Below, one piece after another: positions 19,371 to 26,436 of a stretch of DNA of 37,342 nt (the stretch's first letter is position 1; the number at the start of each line of letters is the position of its first letter). The stretch lies in contig PLTN01000191.1 in the NCBI GenBank assembly GCA_003164495.1, positions 63,512-100,853 of the forward strand, given 5' to 3'. The position numbers and the translations under genes are program-made. Source of the stretch: Vulcanimicrobiota bacterium. Its GTDB lineage: Bacteria; Vulcanimicrobiota; Vulcanimicrobiia; Vulcanimicrobiales; Vulcanimicrobiaceae. Below the pieces are notes generated by a model, which was not told where the DNA came from, made no database searches, and saw nothing but the letters and a program-made list of their open reading frames with translations.

Positions 19371-20429
19371 ATGAAGGCCGTGATCTTCGAGCGCTTCGGC
19401 GGACCCGAGGTGATGGAATACCGCGACGTTCCGACGCCCGAAGTCGGACCCGACGACGTGCTCGTCGAGGTGCACGCGGTCACCGTCAACCGGGCGCTCG
19501 ACATTCACGTGCGCGAATCCGGCGACGGGCGCAATCCCGTGCTGCCGCTCGTCCTCGGCGTCGACCCGGTCGGCGTGATCGTCAAAGTGGGCGCGAACGT
19601 TCCGCAAACGCGTCTCGGCGAACGCGTTGCCGTGGCGGCATCGGTGCGGTGTGGAACCTGCGGCGCGTGCCTCGACGGCCGCCCCAACGATTGCGTCGCA
19701 ACGCAGCATCTAGGTATTCACCGCTGGGGCGGCTACGCGGAATACGTGCGGATCCCGGCCGATTGCACTATGCCGATTCCCGACAACATGAACTTCCCGG
19801 AAGCGGCCGTCGTCTTCCGCCACTTCCCGACCGCGTTTCATCTGCTCGACTGCAAAGCCGGCATCAAAGCCGGTGAGACCGTGCTGATCATGGGTGCCGC
19901 GGGCGGACTCGGCAACGCCGGCATCCAGGTGGCGAAATATCGCGGCGCGCGCGTGATCGCCGGCGCCGGCACCGATGCGGGTGTCGCGCTGGCACGCGAA
20001 ACCGGCGCCGACGAAGCGGTCAACTACCGCACCGAAAACCTTGAAGCGCGCGTCAACGAACTCACCGGCGGGCGCGGCGTCGACATCGTGTTCGAGAATA
20101 TCGGCGCGCCGGATCTGTGGCCGGCGGCCTTCAACTCGCTCGGCGGCGGCGGACGCCTCGTTACCGCGGGCGCGCACGGCGGCGGTACCGTTACGCTCGA
20201 CGTGAAACGGCTCTACCGCCGCAAGCTGCGCGTGATCGGCGGCGCGGGTTCCGACCCCTGGGATATCGAGGCGACGGTTGCCGGGGCCGCGAGCGGAGCG
20301 TTGCACGGCGCGATCGATCGCGTGCTGCCGCTCTCCGAAGTTGCGGAAGCGCACCGGCTCGTGACCGAGCGCGAAGTCACCGGTAAGGTCGTGCTCGTGC
20401 CCGAACGCGTCCTCGCGCTAACGAACTAG
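19371..20429 (+). CDS. MDR-superfamily alcohol dehydrogenase/quinone oxidoreductase-like, structural zinc only
   Basis: 352 aa. GroES-like domain, then the Rossmann fold with GAAGGLGNAGIQVAK as cofactor site (around 170-185). Four Cys for structural zinc are present in CGTCGACLDGRPNDC, but the catalytic-zinc ligands are not: the usual C-G-T-D is VNRALD and the G-H-E is GVDPVG. So reduction of an enone or quinone-type substrate, or a non-zinc mechanism, is likelier than classical alcohol oxidation. It sits 7 nt after the VOC gene, in the operon with the importer. Its last 12 nt overlap the end of the convergent 193-aa gene. Confidence 0.82.
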   Translation: MKAVIFERFGGPEVMEYRDVPTPEVGPDDVLVEVHAVTVNRALDIHVRESGDGRNPVLPLVLGVDPVGVIVKVGANVPQTRLGERVAVAASVRCGTCGACLDGRPNDCVATQHLGIHRWGGYAEYVRIPADCTMPIPDNMNFPEAAVVFRHFPTAFHLLDCKAGIKAGETVLIMGAAGGLGNAGIQVAKYRGARVIAGAGTDAGVALARETGADEAVNYRTENLEARVNELTGGRGVDIVFENIGAPDLWPAAFNSLGGGGRLVTAGAHGGGTVTLDVKRLYRRKLRVIGGAGSDPWDIEATVAGAASGALHGAIDRVLPLSEVAEAHRLVTEREVTGKVVLVPERVLALTN

Positions 20430-20999
20430 CCGATCGCCCGGTTCCGGCGGCGGCTCGGGGGGTGCCGGAACCGTCGGCATCTCGTGATTGGCGTAGAGCG
20501 CAATGCGTTCGATGCGCCCGTCGTTGCCGCTGATGATCGCGATACCGTGCTGCCAGCGCGCTTGGAAGGCGTGCTGATAGACGATCGAGCGCGCCCCGCC
20601 TTCGCGTCCGGCTTGAGAGATGAAATATTCCGGCAACGTCGTGATGCGATTGCCGATGCCGATGTCGCCCGGCTGCACTTTGAAGATACCGTTGGCCGGC
20701 GGCGTGTCGCGCGGTAGATTTTCCGTCTTCGCAAGGTAGTGCTCGATGCCGATCAGCACTTGGCCGCGATAGATCGCCGAGAGCACCCAGCGCTGATTGC
20801 GCAAACCGGCCGCTGCCCACGTCCGCCAGCCCGGTGCCGGATACTCGATCGCCGGCCCCATGCGCCGTTCGATCGCGCGACGCGTGGTGAACCCGGGCAC
20901 GAAGCTGAGCAAGTCGCTCTCAAGCGTCATCGGAACGGCCGACGGCGGTTTCACGGGCGCGACCGGAGGCTTCTTCTTACCGAACAGGCCGACGAACAT
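20418..20999 (-). CDS. Conserved-looking hypothetical protein
   Basis: 193 aa, no family recognised. N-terminus MFVGLFGKKKPPVAPVKPP is short, basic and Pro-rich, not a standard signal peptide. The middle has a globular pattern (LLSFVPGFTTRRAIERRMGPAIEY.., RWVLSAIYRGQVLIGIEHYLAKTE) and a segment IAIISGNDGRIERIALYANHEM; the end is Pro/Glu-rich. Last gene of the minus-strand group headed at 24 kb, 47 nt after the MarR gene. Convergent overlap of 12 nt with the dehydrogenase. Confidence 0.65.
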   Translation of the reverse strand: MFVGLFGKKKPPVAPVKPPSAVPMTLESDLLSFVPGFTTRRAIERRMGPAIEYPAPGWRTWAAAGLRNQRWVLSAIYRGQVLIGIEHYLAKTENLPRDTPPANGIFKVQPGDIGIGNRITTLPEYFISQAGREGGARSIVYQHAFQARWQHGIAIISGNDGRIERIALYANHEMPTVPAPPEPPPEPGDRLVR

Positions 21000-21046: not shown

Positions 21047-21478
21047 TCAGTCGAGCGCGATGCGCCCCAAGAGCGCCATTAAGTGATCGCGCTCCGCCGG
21101 CGCGAGCGGTGCCAGCGTTTCGCTCTGCGCACGCGCGCTCAGCTCGGCGATTTCGCCGGCCTGGCGCTCGCCGCCGGGCGAAAGCCGAACGCGCAGTTGG
21201 CGCTGATCCGACGGGTGCGGTTCGACCACGATCAAGGCTTGCTTTTTGAGGCGTGCGACCAAGCCATGCACGTTAGCCGGTTCCATCCCGATCGCACGGC
21301 CGAGATCCGCTTGCGAAAGCGGACCGCGCGCGTGCAGCGTCATCACCGTTGCCGCCTGCATCGGCGTGATGCCGACGTCTTTCAGCAACCGGCTGGTGTT
21401 GCTCTTGGCACGATGATAGGCGCGGCGGAGCAGATGGCCGACACGATGCTCCGCCTCGAAATCGAGTTCTTCCCTCAG
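21047..21478 (-). CDS. MarR family transcriptional regulator, start codon non-canonical or lost
   Basis: Winged-helix regulator: GITPMQAATVMTLHARGPLSQADLGRAIGMEPANVHGLVARLKKQALIVVEPHPSDQRQLRVRLSPGG covers helix-turn-helix and wing (DQR.RLSPxG is the MarR hallmark). The frame codes for a proper N-terminal helix (EELDFEAEHRVGHLLRRAYHRAKSN) upstream of the first canonical start (TTG 21388), yet no ATG/GTG/TTG precedes that helix; I give the CTG at 21478 as the boundary (143 aa, usual MarR length). The dispersed repeat at 21484-21507 abuts this point and may have replaced the original start. Likely ligand: an aromatic acid; likely target: the palindromes at 22392-22414. Alternative: TTG 21388, giving a 113-aa shortened protein. 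Confidence 0.7.
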   Translation of the reverse strand: MREELDFEAEHRVGHLLRRAYHRAKSNTSRLLKDVGITPMQAATVMTLHARGPLSQADLGRAIGMEPANVHGLVARLKKQALIVVEPHPSDQRQLRVRLSPGGERQAGEIAELSARAQSETLAPLAPAERDHLMALLGRIALD

Positions 21479-21483
21479 CTTAG

Positions 21484-21507
21484 CCTGCCCTGAGCGGAGT
21501 CGAGGGG
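21484..21507. repeat. Dispersed repeat, single copy at the 5' end of the MarR gene
   Basis: CCTGCCCTGAGCGGAGTCGAGGGG; its reverse complement matches the copy at 24110-24136 almost exactly (CCTTCGACTCCGCTCAGGGCAGGCT there). Lies between the PBP2-fold gene stop (21511) and the first MarR codons. Confidence 0.75.
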
Positions 21508-21510
21508 TGG

Positions 21511-22392
21511 TTAACGCGCCGACGCGACGGCTTCTTCGAACCGGCCCGCGCCGATCTTATCGGCGTCGAAGATGCCGCGCTCTTCCACCCAGCGGTGCGT
21601 TTCTTCGTACATCGTCTTCGAATACGGCTCGAAGATCAGCCGCTCGCCGGGACCGAAGCGGCGCACGTCGACCAACGGACGAAACCGCTCCTGCAACTCG
21701 TTCTGATAGTAGTGCACGTACTTCTGGTGACGCACGTCGATATCGGCTTGCGCGCGCCGCAACGCCGCATAGTACTTCTTCACATCGTCGAGGTCGGCGT
21801 CTTTCGACACCATCCCGGCGATCATGAACGTCGTATCGGTGATAACGCGGAAGCCGAGCTGCTCGAGGATATAGCGTTGCATGCCGAACACGTTCGCGGC
21901 CTTCGCCTCGCGCGCGATCATCGCGTCGACGCGCTCGTCGGGCAAACCGCCGAAGCGCAACTTGATCTGATCCGCCGGCAGATATTCTTCGAGCGACTGA
22001 ATCGTCGCGTAGTGGCTGCCGGAATGATAGCCGACGTAGACCTCGACGCCGGCAAGCTGTTCGGGCTTCGTGATCGTCGACTCGGGCGGCACCATGATCG
22101 CGCCCGGCGAGATCGAGTAGCATTCACCCCATAGCGTACCGTAGTCGGCGGATGCCGCCATGTTGACGGTCCAGTGGCACGCGCAGCTCACGGTTGCCTC
22201 GCGACCGGTCTCGTAGGACTCATACGCACCGTGCTTCTTGCCTTCGGCCGTCATGACTCGAGCCGGGTCAGGCTGACCGAGATCGTTTTTCTTGAGGACG
22301 TAGTCCGTCAAACCCTCAGCCACATAGTAGCCCTTCTCTTCCGCAACCCATTCCTGAAGGCGCCCGTGCGTGTGGATGACAAACGTGCTCAT
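21511..22392 (-). CDS. PBP2-fold (NMT1/SsuA-like) protein without signal peptide
   Basis: 293 aa. It begins directly in the fold (MSTFVIHTHGRLQEWVAEEKGYYVAEGL, i.e. first strand plus helix of the binding-protein family), continues with a domain-two strand LAGVEVYVGYHSGSHYATIQ, and has no signal sequence, so it should be cytoplasmic. Unusual motifs: SCACHWTVNMAA and RFGGLPDERVDAMIAREAKAAN. PBP2-fold proteins without export are known as enzymes (to my knowledge 4,5-dihydroxyphthalate decarboxylase belongs to this fold) or as receptors exported otherwise. With a phthalate-type dioxygenase pair in the same window, a decarboxylase role is an attractive inference, not demonstrated. Promoter -10 lies 6 nt from the ATG and coincides with palindromes likely bound by MarR. 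Confidence 0.72.
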   Translation of the reverse strand: MSTFVIHTHGRLQEWVAEEKGYYVAEGLTDYVLKKNDLGQPDPARVMTAEGKKHGAYESYETGREATVSCACHWTVNMAASADYGTLWGECYSISPGAIMVPPESTITKPEQLAGVEVYVGYHSGSHYATIQSLEEYLPADQIKLRFGGLPDERVDAMIAREAKAANVFGMQRYILEQLGFRVITDTTFMIAGMVSKDADLDDVKKYYAALRRAQADIDVRHQKYVHYYQNELQERFRPLVDVRRFGPGERLIFEPYSKTMYEETHRWVEERGIFDADKIGAGRFEEAVASAR

Positions 22393-22414
22393 ATCATTAT
22401 GATAATAACATTAT
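22392..22414 (-). promoter_or_regulatory. Overlapping palindromes, candidate MarR operator
   Basis: On the minus strand: ATAATGTTATTAT (22414-22402, perfect inverted repeat with a GTT centre), ATTATCATAAT (perfect, 1-nt centre) and TATCATAATGATA (22404-22392, perfect 13-bp), all overlapping. The block is the most AT-rich in the neighbourhood. It covers the -10 box and reaches the first base of the start codon, where a bound MarR dimer would block RNA polymerase. Confidence 0.6.
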
Positions 22415-22428
22415 TCAGCCGGCGTCAA
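22399..22428 (-). promoter_or_regulatory. Promoter of the PBP2-fold gene, probably leaderless
   Basis: TTGACG (22428-22423), 18 nt spacer, TATCAT (22404-22399), 6 nt to the ATG at 22392. The -35 box lies inside the last codons of the upstream alpha/beta-hydrolase gene. No ribosome site precedes the ATG, consistent with a leaderless mRNA. Confidence 0.55.
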
Positions 22429-23137
22429 GCCCGGCCCGGCGGGCCGCGGCGATCAGGGCCGCCGTGAGCTCTTCGGGGGCATCGAGCATTACGTCGTGGC
22501 CGCTCGGGATCGCGTCGACGAACCAGCCGCCCTCGGCGCTGACCCGGGCGCGCGCTTCGTCGAAGCCCGGTGAGCGATAGTTGCCGGCGCGCAAGTACGT
22601 CTTGTGCGCGCAGCGCTCGCGTGCGCCCGTGAGCGCCAAACCTTCGGTGAACGTCTTCATCGGCTGCGGCACGCATTGGGCATCGACATACGCGCGGTCG
22701 GCTTCGTTCACGCCGAAGCTCGCGGCCGGAATCGGCGGCAGATATCCCGACGCGGCGGCGGCCTCGAAACGCTCGCGCGTGGCGGCGGGTGCGGTGTCCA
22801 TCAGCGACTGGCCGTCGCCGGGGACGAACGCATCGAGGAAGACCAGGGCGGCGATGCGTTCGGGCGCGGCTTCCACGACGCCGGTGATCACGTTGCCGCC
22901 GTAGGAGTGGCCGCACAGCACGACCTCGCGCAAATCTTCGAACTTCAGCACGTTGACGATGTCGGTAACGTGCGTGCTCAACGTAATGTCCGGGCCGGCA
23001 AGATGCACCCGCTCGCCGAGCCCCGTCAGCGTCGGCGTGAACACGCGATGCCCGCGGGCGCGCAACGCATCGGCGACACGCGTGTAACACCATCCGCCGT
23101 GCCACGCACCGTGGACGAGAACGAACGTCGTCGGCAT
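22415..23137 (-). CDS. Alpha/beta-hydrolase, EstC/methyl-esterase-like
   Basis: 240 aa cytoplasmic. HGAWHGGWCY (residues 9-18) is the oxyanion-hole strand of the plant methylesterase/EstC group; nucleophile Ser in CGHSYGGNV; catalytic His in PSGHDVMLDAPEEL near the end. It would cleave a small ester or amide. The ribosome site AAGGAGAG overlaps the stop codon of the TonB-like gene upstream, so translation is coupled. Substrate unknown. Confidence 0.85.
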   Translation of the reverse strand: MPTTFVLVHGAWHGGWCYTRVADALRARGHRVFTPTLTGLGERVHLAGPDITLSTHVTDIVNVLKFEDLREVVLCGHSYGGNVITGVVEAAPERIAALVFLDAFVPGDGQSLMDTAPAATRERFEAAAASGYLPPIPAASFGVNEADRAYVDAQCVPQPMKTFTEGLALTGARERCAHKTYLRAGNYRSPGFDEARARVSAEGGWFVDAIPSGHDVMLDAPEELTAALIAAARRAGLDAG

Positions 23138-23149
23138 GAGAGGCTCTCC

Positions 23150-24019
23150 TTAGCCGACCTGCGGCCCGCCGAAGAATTGCATCAGGACCGGTTTGAGCGG
23201 GCGGTCGGGTTTGTAATCGGCGGGCGGTGGCTGTAAGGGAATCCGGCGATCGCCACGCGCGAATGGATCGTCGTGGATCGCGTAGTGGAACGGCCACGGG
23301 ATGTCGTCTTCTTCCACGTGTCCGTCGCCGTACATGTATTCGTAGTGCGTCCAGTAGTAGATGATGTTACCGCGGCGTTCGTAATGCAGTGCGGTGATGA
23401 TGCCGTCGCCCGGATTCATCCCCTCGTGAATGCCGTTGAACTGCATTTGGAAATGCTTGGTCGTGATCGTCGGCGCCGTGTCCATCGCGGCATTGGCTTG
23501 GGCCAGCGTCTGGTGCGATTGCGCGATCGACTGGGCGAACGAACTGTTGAGCTGGTCGAGCTGTTCTTGCGAATAGCCCTGGCGCTTGGGTTCGGGCGGC
23601 GCGGCGGCGGGCCGGATCTCGTGCGGGATCTCGGCCACGCCCTCACCGCGGGACGGAGCGTTTTGACGCGGGGCGTGCACGGTGACGTGCGCGAGCTCGT
23701 GGTGCTGTTCGACCGGCGCGACGACCGGCTGCGGTTCGACGCGCGGCGCGGGCGGCGGCGGCGGTGGCGGTTTCGGCGGCTTGGGCTTCGGCAACACGAC
23801 CGCCACGGGCCGTTCTTGCGGCTGGGCTTTCTCGAAGCGAATGATGTCGGACTTCGGCAGCTGCGGCGATTGCAAGCTCGCGAGCTGCGGCAGCGCCTTC
23901 ACCACGGCACGCGCAAGCCACCCGTACAACGAGCCACCCGCGAGGTGGACCATCAACGAGAGCATGAGCCCGATGAGGAGATAGCGCCGCGTTCGCGCGC
24001 GGCCTCGCGCGCTGATCAT
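23150..24019 (-). CDS. TonB-like membrane-anchored protein with a C-terminal domain shared with the ModA-like protein
   Basis: 289 aa. A single N-terminal TM helix (about residues 13-36, cytoplasmic side RGRARTRR), a Pro/Lys/Glu-rich spacer with a run of seven prolines (about 80-110), a Gln-rich helix (YSQEQLDQLNSSFAQSIAQSHQTLAQAN), and a C-terminal domain of about 95 residues. This layout resembles TonB, but the end does not match the TonB C-terminal fold. Instead it has the stretch YWTHYEYMYGDGHVEEDD followed by IPWPF, DPFARGD, IPLQPPP and KPDRPLKP, almost the same as the C-terminus of the protein at 25324. Probably envelope-spanning, interacting with the same partner. The start has only a weak AGGA before it. 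Confidence 0.65.
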   Translation of the reverse strand: MISARGRARTRRYLLIGLMLSLMVHLAGGSLYGWLARAVVKALPQLASLQSPQLPKSDIIRFEKAQPQERPVAVVLPKPKPPKPPPPPPPAPRVEPQPVVAPVEQHHELAHVTVHAPRQNAPSRGEGVAEIPHEIRPAAAPPEPKRQGYSQEQLDQLNSSFAQSIAQSHQTLAQANAAMDTAPTITTKHFQMQFNGIHEGMNPGDGIITALHYERRGNIIYYWTHYEYMYGDGHVEEDDIPWPFHYAIHDDPFARGDRRIPLQPPPADYKPDRPLKPVLMQFFGGPQVG

Positions 24020-24041: not shown

Positions 24042-24056
24042 GGACTACGGTAGTCC
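24042..24056. promoter_or_regulatory. Perfect 15-bp palindrome upstream of the TonB-like gene, possible operator
   Basis: GGACTAC-G-GTAGTCC, perfect arms of 7 bp around one base, centred 30 nt upstream of the ATG at 24019. No convincing promoter is seen next to it, so the regulatory reading is tentative. Confidence 0.3.
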
Positions 24057-24109: not shown

Positions 24110-24136
24110 CCCCTTCGACTCCGCTCAGGGCAGGCT
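24110..24136. repeat. Dispersed repeat, single copy downstream of rplL
   Basis: CCCCTTCGACTCCGCTCAGG and following GCAGGCT match the minus strand of the copy at 21484-21507. Lies in the gap between the TonB-like gene and the rplL terminator. Confidence 0.75.
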
Positions 24137-25297: not shown

Positions 25298-25327
25298 ATC
25301 ATACCCCACGCGCCCCCAGAGGGTCAA
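25298..25327 (-). promoter_or_regulatory. rplJ promoter
   Basis: TTGACC (25327-25322), 18 nt, TATGAT (25303-25298): each box 5 of 6 to the sigma70 consensus. The -35 box contains the TGA stop codon (25326-25324) of the upstream ModA-like gene. Confidence 0.7.
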
Positions 25328-26436
25328 CCCAGCCTCATGTCACCCTGAGCCCCTCGAAGGGCCGCCGCCACCTGGAGGCCGGGGAAGTATTCCAGCAAGA
25401 GCGGCTTGAGCGGGCGGTCGGGTTTGAACCCCTTGGGCGGCGGCTGAAGCGGTATTTGCGAGTCCCCGCGCGCGAACGGATCGTTGCCGGTCGGAAAATA
25501 GAACGGCCACGGGATGTCGTCTTCCTCGACGTGCCCATCCGGATACCGGTAGATGTAGTGCACCCAATACTTGGTCAATGCGCCATCGGGTTCGTAGCTG
25601 TTGTACGTCATCGCACCCTGACCCGGCGCGAGCGCATCGAGCAAGCCGGTGAAGCCGAATTTCGTGAACACGGCTTGCGCCGGATCGGACAACAGAAACG
25701 CTTGCAGGCGCAGGGCGTCGGCCGAGGCGCCGGTACGCGCGACCAGATCGAACGGAATCTGGACGTTGAGGCTGGCCGGAAGCTCGTCCAGCCGTACGCC
25801 CTCCGGAGGCACGGCGGCGACCGCCTTTGCAAACGAGCAGTAGGTGAGAAACGCCGCGTGCGACGACGCAAGCGTCGCGGCGGCGGCCGGCGCGTCGAAG
25901 CCGGGCGCGCTATCGCGCGCCTTCGAGCGCAGATCGATGCTCATGCCGGGCGCGAGGCGAGCGAAGCCTTTGATCACTTGGTCGGCGTAGGCGGTGACGT
26001 ACCGCTCTTGCACCTGTTTGATCAATCCGAGCGCCGGATCGGCCAGAACGTCCATGAACGAACGCCCCGCAGCGAGCGCGTTCGGCGTCAGCAGGCAGAG
26101 CGCGGTTCGCGCCACGACGCGGATATTGCCGTACTTGCCGGTATCGCGCAATTCGAAGGGCGCCGGCAAATCGAGCGCGACGAACAGATCCGGCGTATCG
26201 GGCATGAGCTTCCCCATCAGCGCCGCATCCGAATCGTACGTTGTATCGACAACGATGCCGGTCTGCCGGGTGAATGCCGTGACCGCTTCATCGACCGGAC
26301 CCTTGAGTAAAACGTTCGCATACAGCGTTACGTGGCGCTGCGGCGCAATGGTCTGCGAGGCGGCCGGCGCCCCCGGAAATAAAAACAGCGCTGCCGCCAC
26401 CGTAAGGGCTACGGCGGACGACCAGCGCTGCTTCAT
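25324..26436 (-). CDS. ModA-like periplasmic substrate-binding protein with an added C-terminal domain
   Basis: 370 aa. Signal peptide to about residue 27 (FLFPGAPAASQ), then a binding-protein fold of the molybdate/iron (SBP type II) kind: HVTLYANVLLKGPVDEAVTAFTRQTGIVVDTTYDSDAALMGKL, DTPDLFVALD, and AFLLSDPAQAVFTKFGF. The usual two-Ser oxyanion start is not conserved, so molybdate is doubtful. From about residue 275 comes a domain (YWVHYIYRYPDGHVEEDD, IPWPF, DPFARGD, IPLQPPP, KPDRPLKP) shared with the TonB-like protein at 23150. The last 14 residues (AAALRGAQGDMRLG) are encoded by the dispersed repeat at 25338, i.e. added by the repeat. It lies 13 nt after a Liv-type binding protein, in one operon. 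Confidence 0.72.
   Translation of the reverse strand: MKQRWSSAVALTVAAALFLFPGAPAASQTIAPQRHVTLYANVLLKGPVDEAVTAFTRQTGIVVDTTYDSDAALMGKLMPDTPDLFVALDLPAPFELRDTGKYGNIRVVARTALCLLTPNALAAGRSFMDVLADPALGLIKQVQERYVTAYADQVIKGFARLAPGMSIDLRSKARDSAPGFDAPAAAATLASSHAAFLTYCSFAKAVAAVPPEGVRLDELPASLNVQIPFDLVARTGASADALRLQAFLLSDPAQAVFTKFGFTGLLDALAPGQGAMTYNSYEPDGALTKYWVHYIYRYPDGHVEEDDIPWPFYFPTGNDPFARGDSQIPLQPPPKGFKPDRPLKPLLLEYFPGLQVAAALRGAQGDMRLG
25338..25361. repeat. Dispersed repeat, single copy read as the C-terminal tail of the ModA-like gene
   Basis: TGTCACCCTGAGCCCCTCGA and AGGG: same family as the other copies. It lies wholly inside the end of the minus-strand gene and just upstream of the rplJ -35 box. Confidence 0.75.

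Follow-up and report, generated by a model that had tools for sequence, protein, structure and literature searches.

We identified a stretch at 22392-22428, inside a row of minus-strand genes of a soil bacterium, that is best explained as a species-specific leaderless promoter outside the control of the adjacent MarR regulator, a reading to which we assign a probability of about 0.5. The promoter most likely arose recently, within an older gene row. From sequence, spacing, synteny, absence of the site in orthologs and a predicted fold, we infer promoter activity, leaderless translation, read-through and independence from MarR; the layout is otherwise ordinary. We propose that an internal leaderless promoter of sigma70 type, present here but lacking in the sister species, would allow a gene for a signal-less PBP2-fold protein (the PBP gene) and the MarR gene to be transcribed apart from the upstream genes of the row. 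Transcripts would begin on or beside the ATG and so be translated with no Shine-Dalgarno sequence, whereas in the sister a Shine-Dalgarno site would direct translation of the PBP gene, presumably from a read-through message. The palindromes that cover the promoter would be mostly a by-product of its AT-rich -10 region, with the neighbouring MarR as first candidate for any repressor acting there.

The gene row and its candidate internal promoter

The window (the whole stretch analysed, 37,342 nucleotides) lies on contig C226. The genome is 5.37 Mb in size, with a GC content of 64% in a 454-kb sample. The row comprises a proline-rich gene, an alpha/beta hydrolase gene, the PBP gene, the MarR gene and a conserved gene (Table 1). 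A terminator-like hairpin at 24173-24149, after the ribosomal gene upstream of the row, suggests that the row has its own promoter. The first-pass annotation had treated PBP and MarR as one unit, with the MarR gene two positions downstream on the same strand. They are indeed a same-strand pair with MarR downstream, but MarR is the immediately following gene and the pair is not self-contained, being the middle of a longer same-strand row. No Rfam families were found within the window.

Table 1. Coordinates of genes and candidate regulatory elements in the window
Feature	Position	Strand	Remarks
Proline-rich gene	23150-24019	-	Opens the row; resembles TonB by eye; without Pfam match
Alpha/beta hydrolase gene	22415-23137	-	Directly upstream of the PBP gene, 22 nt apart
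PBP gene	21511-22392	-	Signal-less PBP2-fold (SsuA/TauA/THI5-like) protein, 293 aa
MarR-family regulator gene	21047-21478	-	143 codons from CTG
Conserved uncharacterised gene	20418-20999	-	Downstream of MarR; sister protein 90.6% identical
-35-like hexamer TTGACG	22423-22428	-	Within the 3′-terminal codons of the hydrolase gene
-10-like hexamer TATCAT	22399-22404	-	Spacer of 18 nt to the -35; ATG follows after 6 nt
Palindrome TATCATAATGATA	22392-22404		Minus-strand reading 22404-22392; 6-bp arms, 1-nt centre; takes in the A of the ATG
Palindrome ATTATCATAAT	22396-22406		Minus-strand reading 22406-22396; 5-bp arms, 1-nt centre
Inverted repeat AATAATGTTATT (AATAA-TG-TTATT)	22404-22415		Minus-strand reading 22415-22404; 5-bp arms, 2-nt centre
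Palindrome GGACTACCGTAGTCC	24042-24056 (contig 87553-87567)		Upstream of the first row gene; GGACTTTGGTAGTCC in sister; alternative candidate regulatory site

Two repeated sequences were observed in and around the row. The proteins encoded at 23150-24019 and 25324-26436, which flank ribosomal protein genes, have a common C-terminal stretch (GHVEEDDIPWPF...DPFARGD..IPLQPPP); in the second protein it comes after an SBP_bac_11 domain. A 22-base element, CTTCGACTCCGCTCAGGGCAGG or a one-mismatch form of it, is found both at 21484-21505, between the PBP stop and the MarR start, and at 24113-24134, upstream of the row. Four genomic places carry this element at two mismatches or fewer, versus none in the control, and it is absent between the PBP and MarR genes of the sister species.

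The two promoter-like hexamers match 10 of 12 consensus bases and were the sole minus-strand promoter match (22399-22428) in the 4.4 kb between 20300 and 24700. No Shine-Dalgarno sequence is visible before the window PBP gene, and its -10 box falls within the 5-7 nt before the start codon that mark a leaderless gene. The earlier description of a leaderless gene with its -10 under the palindromes agrees with these features; given such spacing and no Shine-Dalgarno sequence, the gene is probably leaderless. Genome-wide, the pattern TTGAC-N17-19-TANNNT-N5-7-ATG occurred at 16 sites, the window site counted, versus 4 in a reversed-pattern control. TANNNT also peaked 6 nt before the start codon (8, versus 0-6 at other distances) in 357 sampled upstream regions, counts that are approximate because the genes came from a crude gene finder with longest-frame starts. 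The finder miscalled a wrong-strand frame (21083-21493) over the MarR gene, and 14 of its 371 sampled genes were omitted as having no usable 60-base upstream stretch. Together, the 16 versus 4 count and the peak at 6 nt suggest that leaderless starts are used in this genome. Since Shine-Dalgarno-like five-mers peaked at 6 nt too in the sampled regions, the leaderless and Shine-Dalgarno modes would coexist here.

Among 149 searched genomes of the phylum, the PBP gene was detected only in the window genome and in a genome of the same genus (Candidatus Eremiobacterota, a bog isolate), which we call the sister. All five row genes are present in the sister in unchanged order, with nucleotide identities of 73% (proline-rich), 72% (hydrolase), 84% (PBP), 73% (MarR) and 84% (conserved gene). 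A scan of species genomes returned seven PBP loci, namely that of the sister, five from alphaproteobacteria (49-62% identity) and a partial, distant match in Bordetella. Where the window has its AT-rich stretch, the sister carries cttAGGAGAGatgcATG; the 36 known bases before its PBP ATG contain AGGAGAG as a Shine-Dalgarno leader and no palindrome. A run of 38 N, a gap or masked stretch, begins 36 nt upstream of that start codon, so a palindromic site may lie further upstream there. Upstream regions were compared at six loci, leaving aside L021 (partial and distant) and L004 (a paralog). No palindrome with arms of at least 5 was present in the 50 bases before the start in L015, L016, L017, L019 or L020, and L018 had an unrelated one (GCGCAATTGCGC). 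None of the five alphaproteobacterial loci had the window palindromes, and no similar MarR gene was present within their fetched flanks.

Palindromes over the candidate promoter and possible regulators

The first-pass annotation had described three overlapping perfect palindromes at 22392-22414 that coincide with the -10 box and the first base of the gene. The number, overlap and placement were accurate, but AATAATGTTATT reaches 22415 and is not gap-free. The palindromic site thus overlaps promoter elements of the PBP and MarR genes. An arm of at least 6 arose with p = 0.04-0.12 in shuffles of 27-base and 41-base stretches and was present in 27 of the 357 sampled upstream regions, 13 of these being longer than the window's. 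A single 6-bp arm in so AT-rich a stretch is therefore unremarkable and close to chance. The stretch contains five inverted repeats with arms of at least 5 (p <= 0.0008 in shuffles; the top count among the 357 upstream regions), which overlap, two with a common centre, and are thus non-independent, the shuffles being counted identically. This pile-up exceeds what AT-richness would give and hints at selection for a binding site. When the 16 leaderless promoters were submitted to shuffling, one fell below p = 0.05 (0.007) and the window's gave 0.077, so leaderless promoters in this genome are not generally marked by palindromes. A hairpin or cruciform was rejected, single-strand folding of the stretch being no better than that of shuffles (z -0.85). 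Elsewhere, in L060 (9373-9411; G000:C226, about 29.4 kb), two divergent genes have an 18-bp perfect palindrome, TGTTATAATATTATAACA, between them. It is a far stronger operator candidate than the 22392-22415 palindromes.

The first-pass annotation had interpreted the palindromes as the operator of the neighbouring regulator. A MarR dimer would bind TATCATAATGATA over the -10, block transcription of the PBP gene and of its own gene, and be released by an aromatic acid of the surrounding catabolic genes. We regard this as possible but doubtful. Gene order and strand favour it, as does the pile-up of inverted repeats. PMC5401885 and PMC5201249 describe MarR proteins as commonly binding palindromes over promoter elements, their own promoters included. 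Among MarR regulators, an operator placed over the -10 is known from EstR of Agrobacterium, which controls the esterase EstC through GTTATCGCGATAAC (PMC5201249) and offers a precedent. The window resembles EstR/EstC in having a MarR-family gene near an alpha/beta hydrolase, a palindrome over the -10 and TATC/GATA half-sites. It differs in that EstR and EstC are divergent genes with two footprinted operators with a GC centre, whereas the window genes are collinear and the site is only a candidate. EstR, moreover, senses peroxides through Cys16 and the window MarR is without cysteine.

The protein itself is a clear family member. Pfam matches to MarR_2 (52.5 bits, cut-off 27) and MarR (41.3 bits, cut-off 24.6) place it in the winged helix-turn-helix family. 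No ATG, GTG or TTG occurs in the window frame early enough for the full MarR fold with its first helix, and a CTG is present at the expected start in both species (window 21476-21478; L003 1499-1501). In the sister this CTG overlaps the PBP stop codon (CTGA). Its closest solved chains were 2nnn and, as the best match (E 1.3e-16), 6pcp/6pco, which we take to be BpsR of Bordetella. The residue numbers agree with those in PMC6837509, according to which BpsR binds 6-hydroxynicotinate through Tyr15, His23, Arg26 and His32. The helix-1 motif VGHLLRRAY is common to both proteins, and His23 and Arg26 correspond to H15 and R18 of the window MarR. Tyr15 and His32 are replaced by F7 and A24 (F7, just outside the printed alignment, was placed by counting), so that two of the four ligand residues are kept and the ligand is probably other than that of BpsR. 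The ligand positions would fit an aromatic carboxylate and name none.

Aromatic acids are a reasonable guess for the ligand, given the aromatic-degradation genes around the locus and near the orthologs. The window contains a LigXa-like Rieske oxygenase, a VOC-family protein, a homogentisate dioxygenase, a molybdenum hydroxylase, a UbiD-type protein and several solute-binding proteins, and PBP orthologs lie near a Rieske gene (L016) and molybdenum-hydroxylase genes (L019), both named by eye.

Against binding of MarR to TATCATAATGATA stands the comparison with the sister species. The two MarRs are 75% identical overall and fully identical across SQADLGRAIGMEPANVHGLV, within which the recognition helix of the MarR family presumably lies. 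A conserved operator should have left something similar in the sister, and none was found in its 12.9-kb locus within three mismatches; the site is thus absent in the only close ortholog despite an identical recognition helix. The palindromes are also missing in five other orthologs, which have no such MarR adjoining. Absence from orthologous loci had been named beforehand as the finding that would count against a MarR operator, and it was largely obtained, in one close and five distant orthologs. A genome scan for the site, proposed at the same time, gave no regulon. TATCATAATGATA occurs exactly once, and near-sites at two mismatches or fewer showed no excess over control in the window genome (10 versus 8, two of the ten being the same site on either strand) or in the sister genome (2 versus 4). 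The 26-base block had no other genomic occurrence at three mismatches or fewer. Finally, the longest symmetric site, 13 bp, is shorter than the usual 16-20 bp (PMC5401885), though 14-bp sites are known (PMC4992311). The MarR-operator interpretation is weakly supported and has failed the best comparative test so far.

Two other assignments were considered. MarR could act on the promoter of the whole row, at or near GGACTACCGTAGTCC just upstream of 24019, which we judge distinctly improbable. The flanks of GGACTACCGTAGTCC are conserved in both species (CTCATGGGACT...GTAGTCCGAGGAACGTTAT), unlike the PBP promoter, and all five genes stay together. In the sister, however, just 5 of the 7 arm pairs remain; near-matches were no more frequent than in the control in either genome (4 versus 6 and 12 versus 12); and conservation between two closely related species carries little weight. 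That the palindromes serve another regulator, MarR-like, TetR-like or similar, is very improbable: 15 further MarR-like matches in the genome (16 with the window MarR) and strong promoter palindromes elsewhere in the sample, such as that of L060, speak for it, but nothing points directly to any particular protein, and the uniqueness of the site makes a global regulator unlikely.

A signal-less PBP2-fold family

The PBP protein was modelled with a mean pLDDT of 81.5 and a pTM of 0.82, the model being good except at residues 38-64, and is predicted to adopt a two-domain PBP2 fold (best VIA-align Z 21.2, rmsd 3.0, 265 residues). The periplasmic-receptor fold without export signal claimed in the first-pass annotation is supported by this predicted fold and its structure matches (SsuA, TauA, PqqT, THI5, MqnD and DszB), and by inspection, which revealed no export signal in the window protein and six close orthologs; in all of them the sequence opens directly with the first strand. 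A shared fold is by itself no proof of function. With SsuA, TauA and PqqT the fold is shared over the whole length (Z 18-21, rmsd 3.0-3.5, 260-266 residues), but identity is 12-18%, no signal peptide is visible in the window protein and close orthologs, and no permease genes adjoin the PBP gene in the window. In L016 a permease-like gene lies directly beside the PBP ortholog, in convergent orientation. THI5, MqnD and DszB, which we take to be cytosolic PBP2-fold enzymes, have the same fold (Z 13.7-17.2) and likewise no export signal, but are only 10-16% identical to the window protein.

The window protein scored 13.6 bits against PF09084 (NMT1/THI5-like; cut-off 20.5), and 8 of 9 members matched this model at E <= 1, with a best value of 1.8e-7. 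Searching the solved structures with the single sequence gave no match, and the PBP profile gave three weak rows. Viral contigs yielded no relative, and plasmid records yielded 12 distant ones (<60% identity), whose annotation was in most cases ABC transporter substrate-binding protein. An alignment of nine sequences, of which one is partial, has 32 invariant columns, including E61, C72, W74, H127, Y128 and R251. A second signal-less PBP2-fold paralog, 29% identical, is encoded in the same genome (L004 1327-2229); the frame after it reads by eye as an exported solute-binding protein. We found no paper joining Eremiobacterota, aromatic compounds and a substrate-binding protein, and such a literature search does not prove absence from print.

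One might go further and suppose that the PBP2-fold protein represents an undescribed cytosolic family exchanged between Alphaproteobacteria and this Eremiobacterota genus, with the invariant residues named above kept even in relatives of about 26-28% identity, acting on lignin-type aromatics either as an enzyme or as a buffer of ligand and placed, in this species, under its own leaderless, MarR-repressed promoter. In this full form the proposal is speculative and rather unlikely. The signal-less PBP2-fold family near aromatic-degradation genes is nevertheless a more durable lead than the MarR operator.

Palindromes next to a regulator gene are frequently taken for its operator. The comparison with the sister indicates that a site which looks strong can be confined to a single genome even when the DNA-binding helix and gene order are conserved. 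If the site were functional after all, it would illustrate the emergence of a new operator and promoter inside a single genus. Members of the signal-less PBP2-fold family, encoded next to Rieske, molybdenum-hydroxylase and other oxidative genes, may have a cytosolic function that is as yet uncharacterised.
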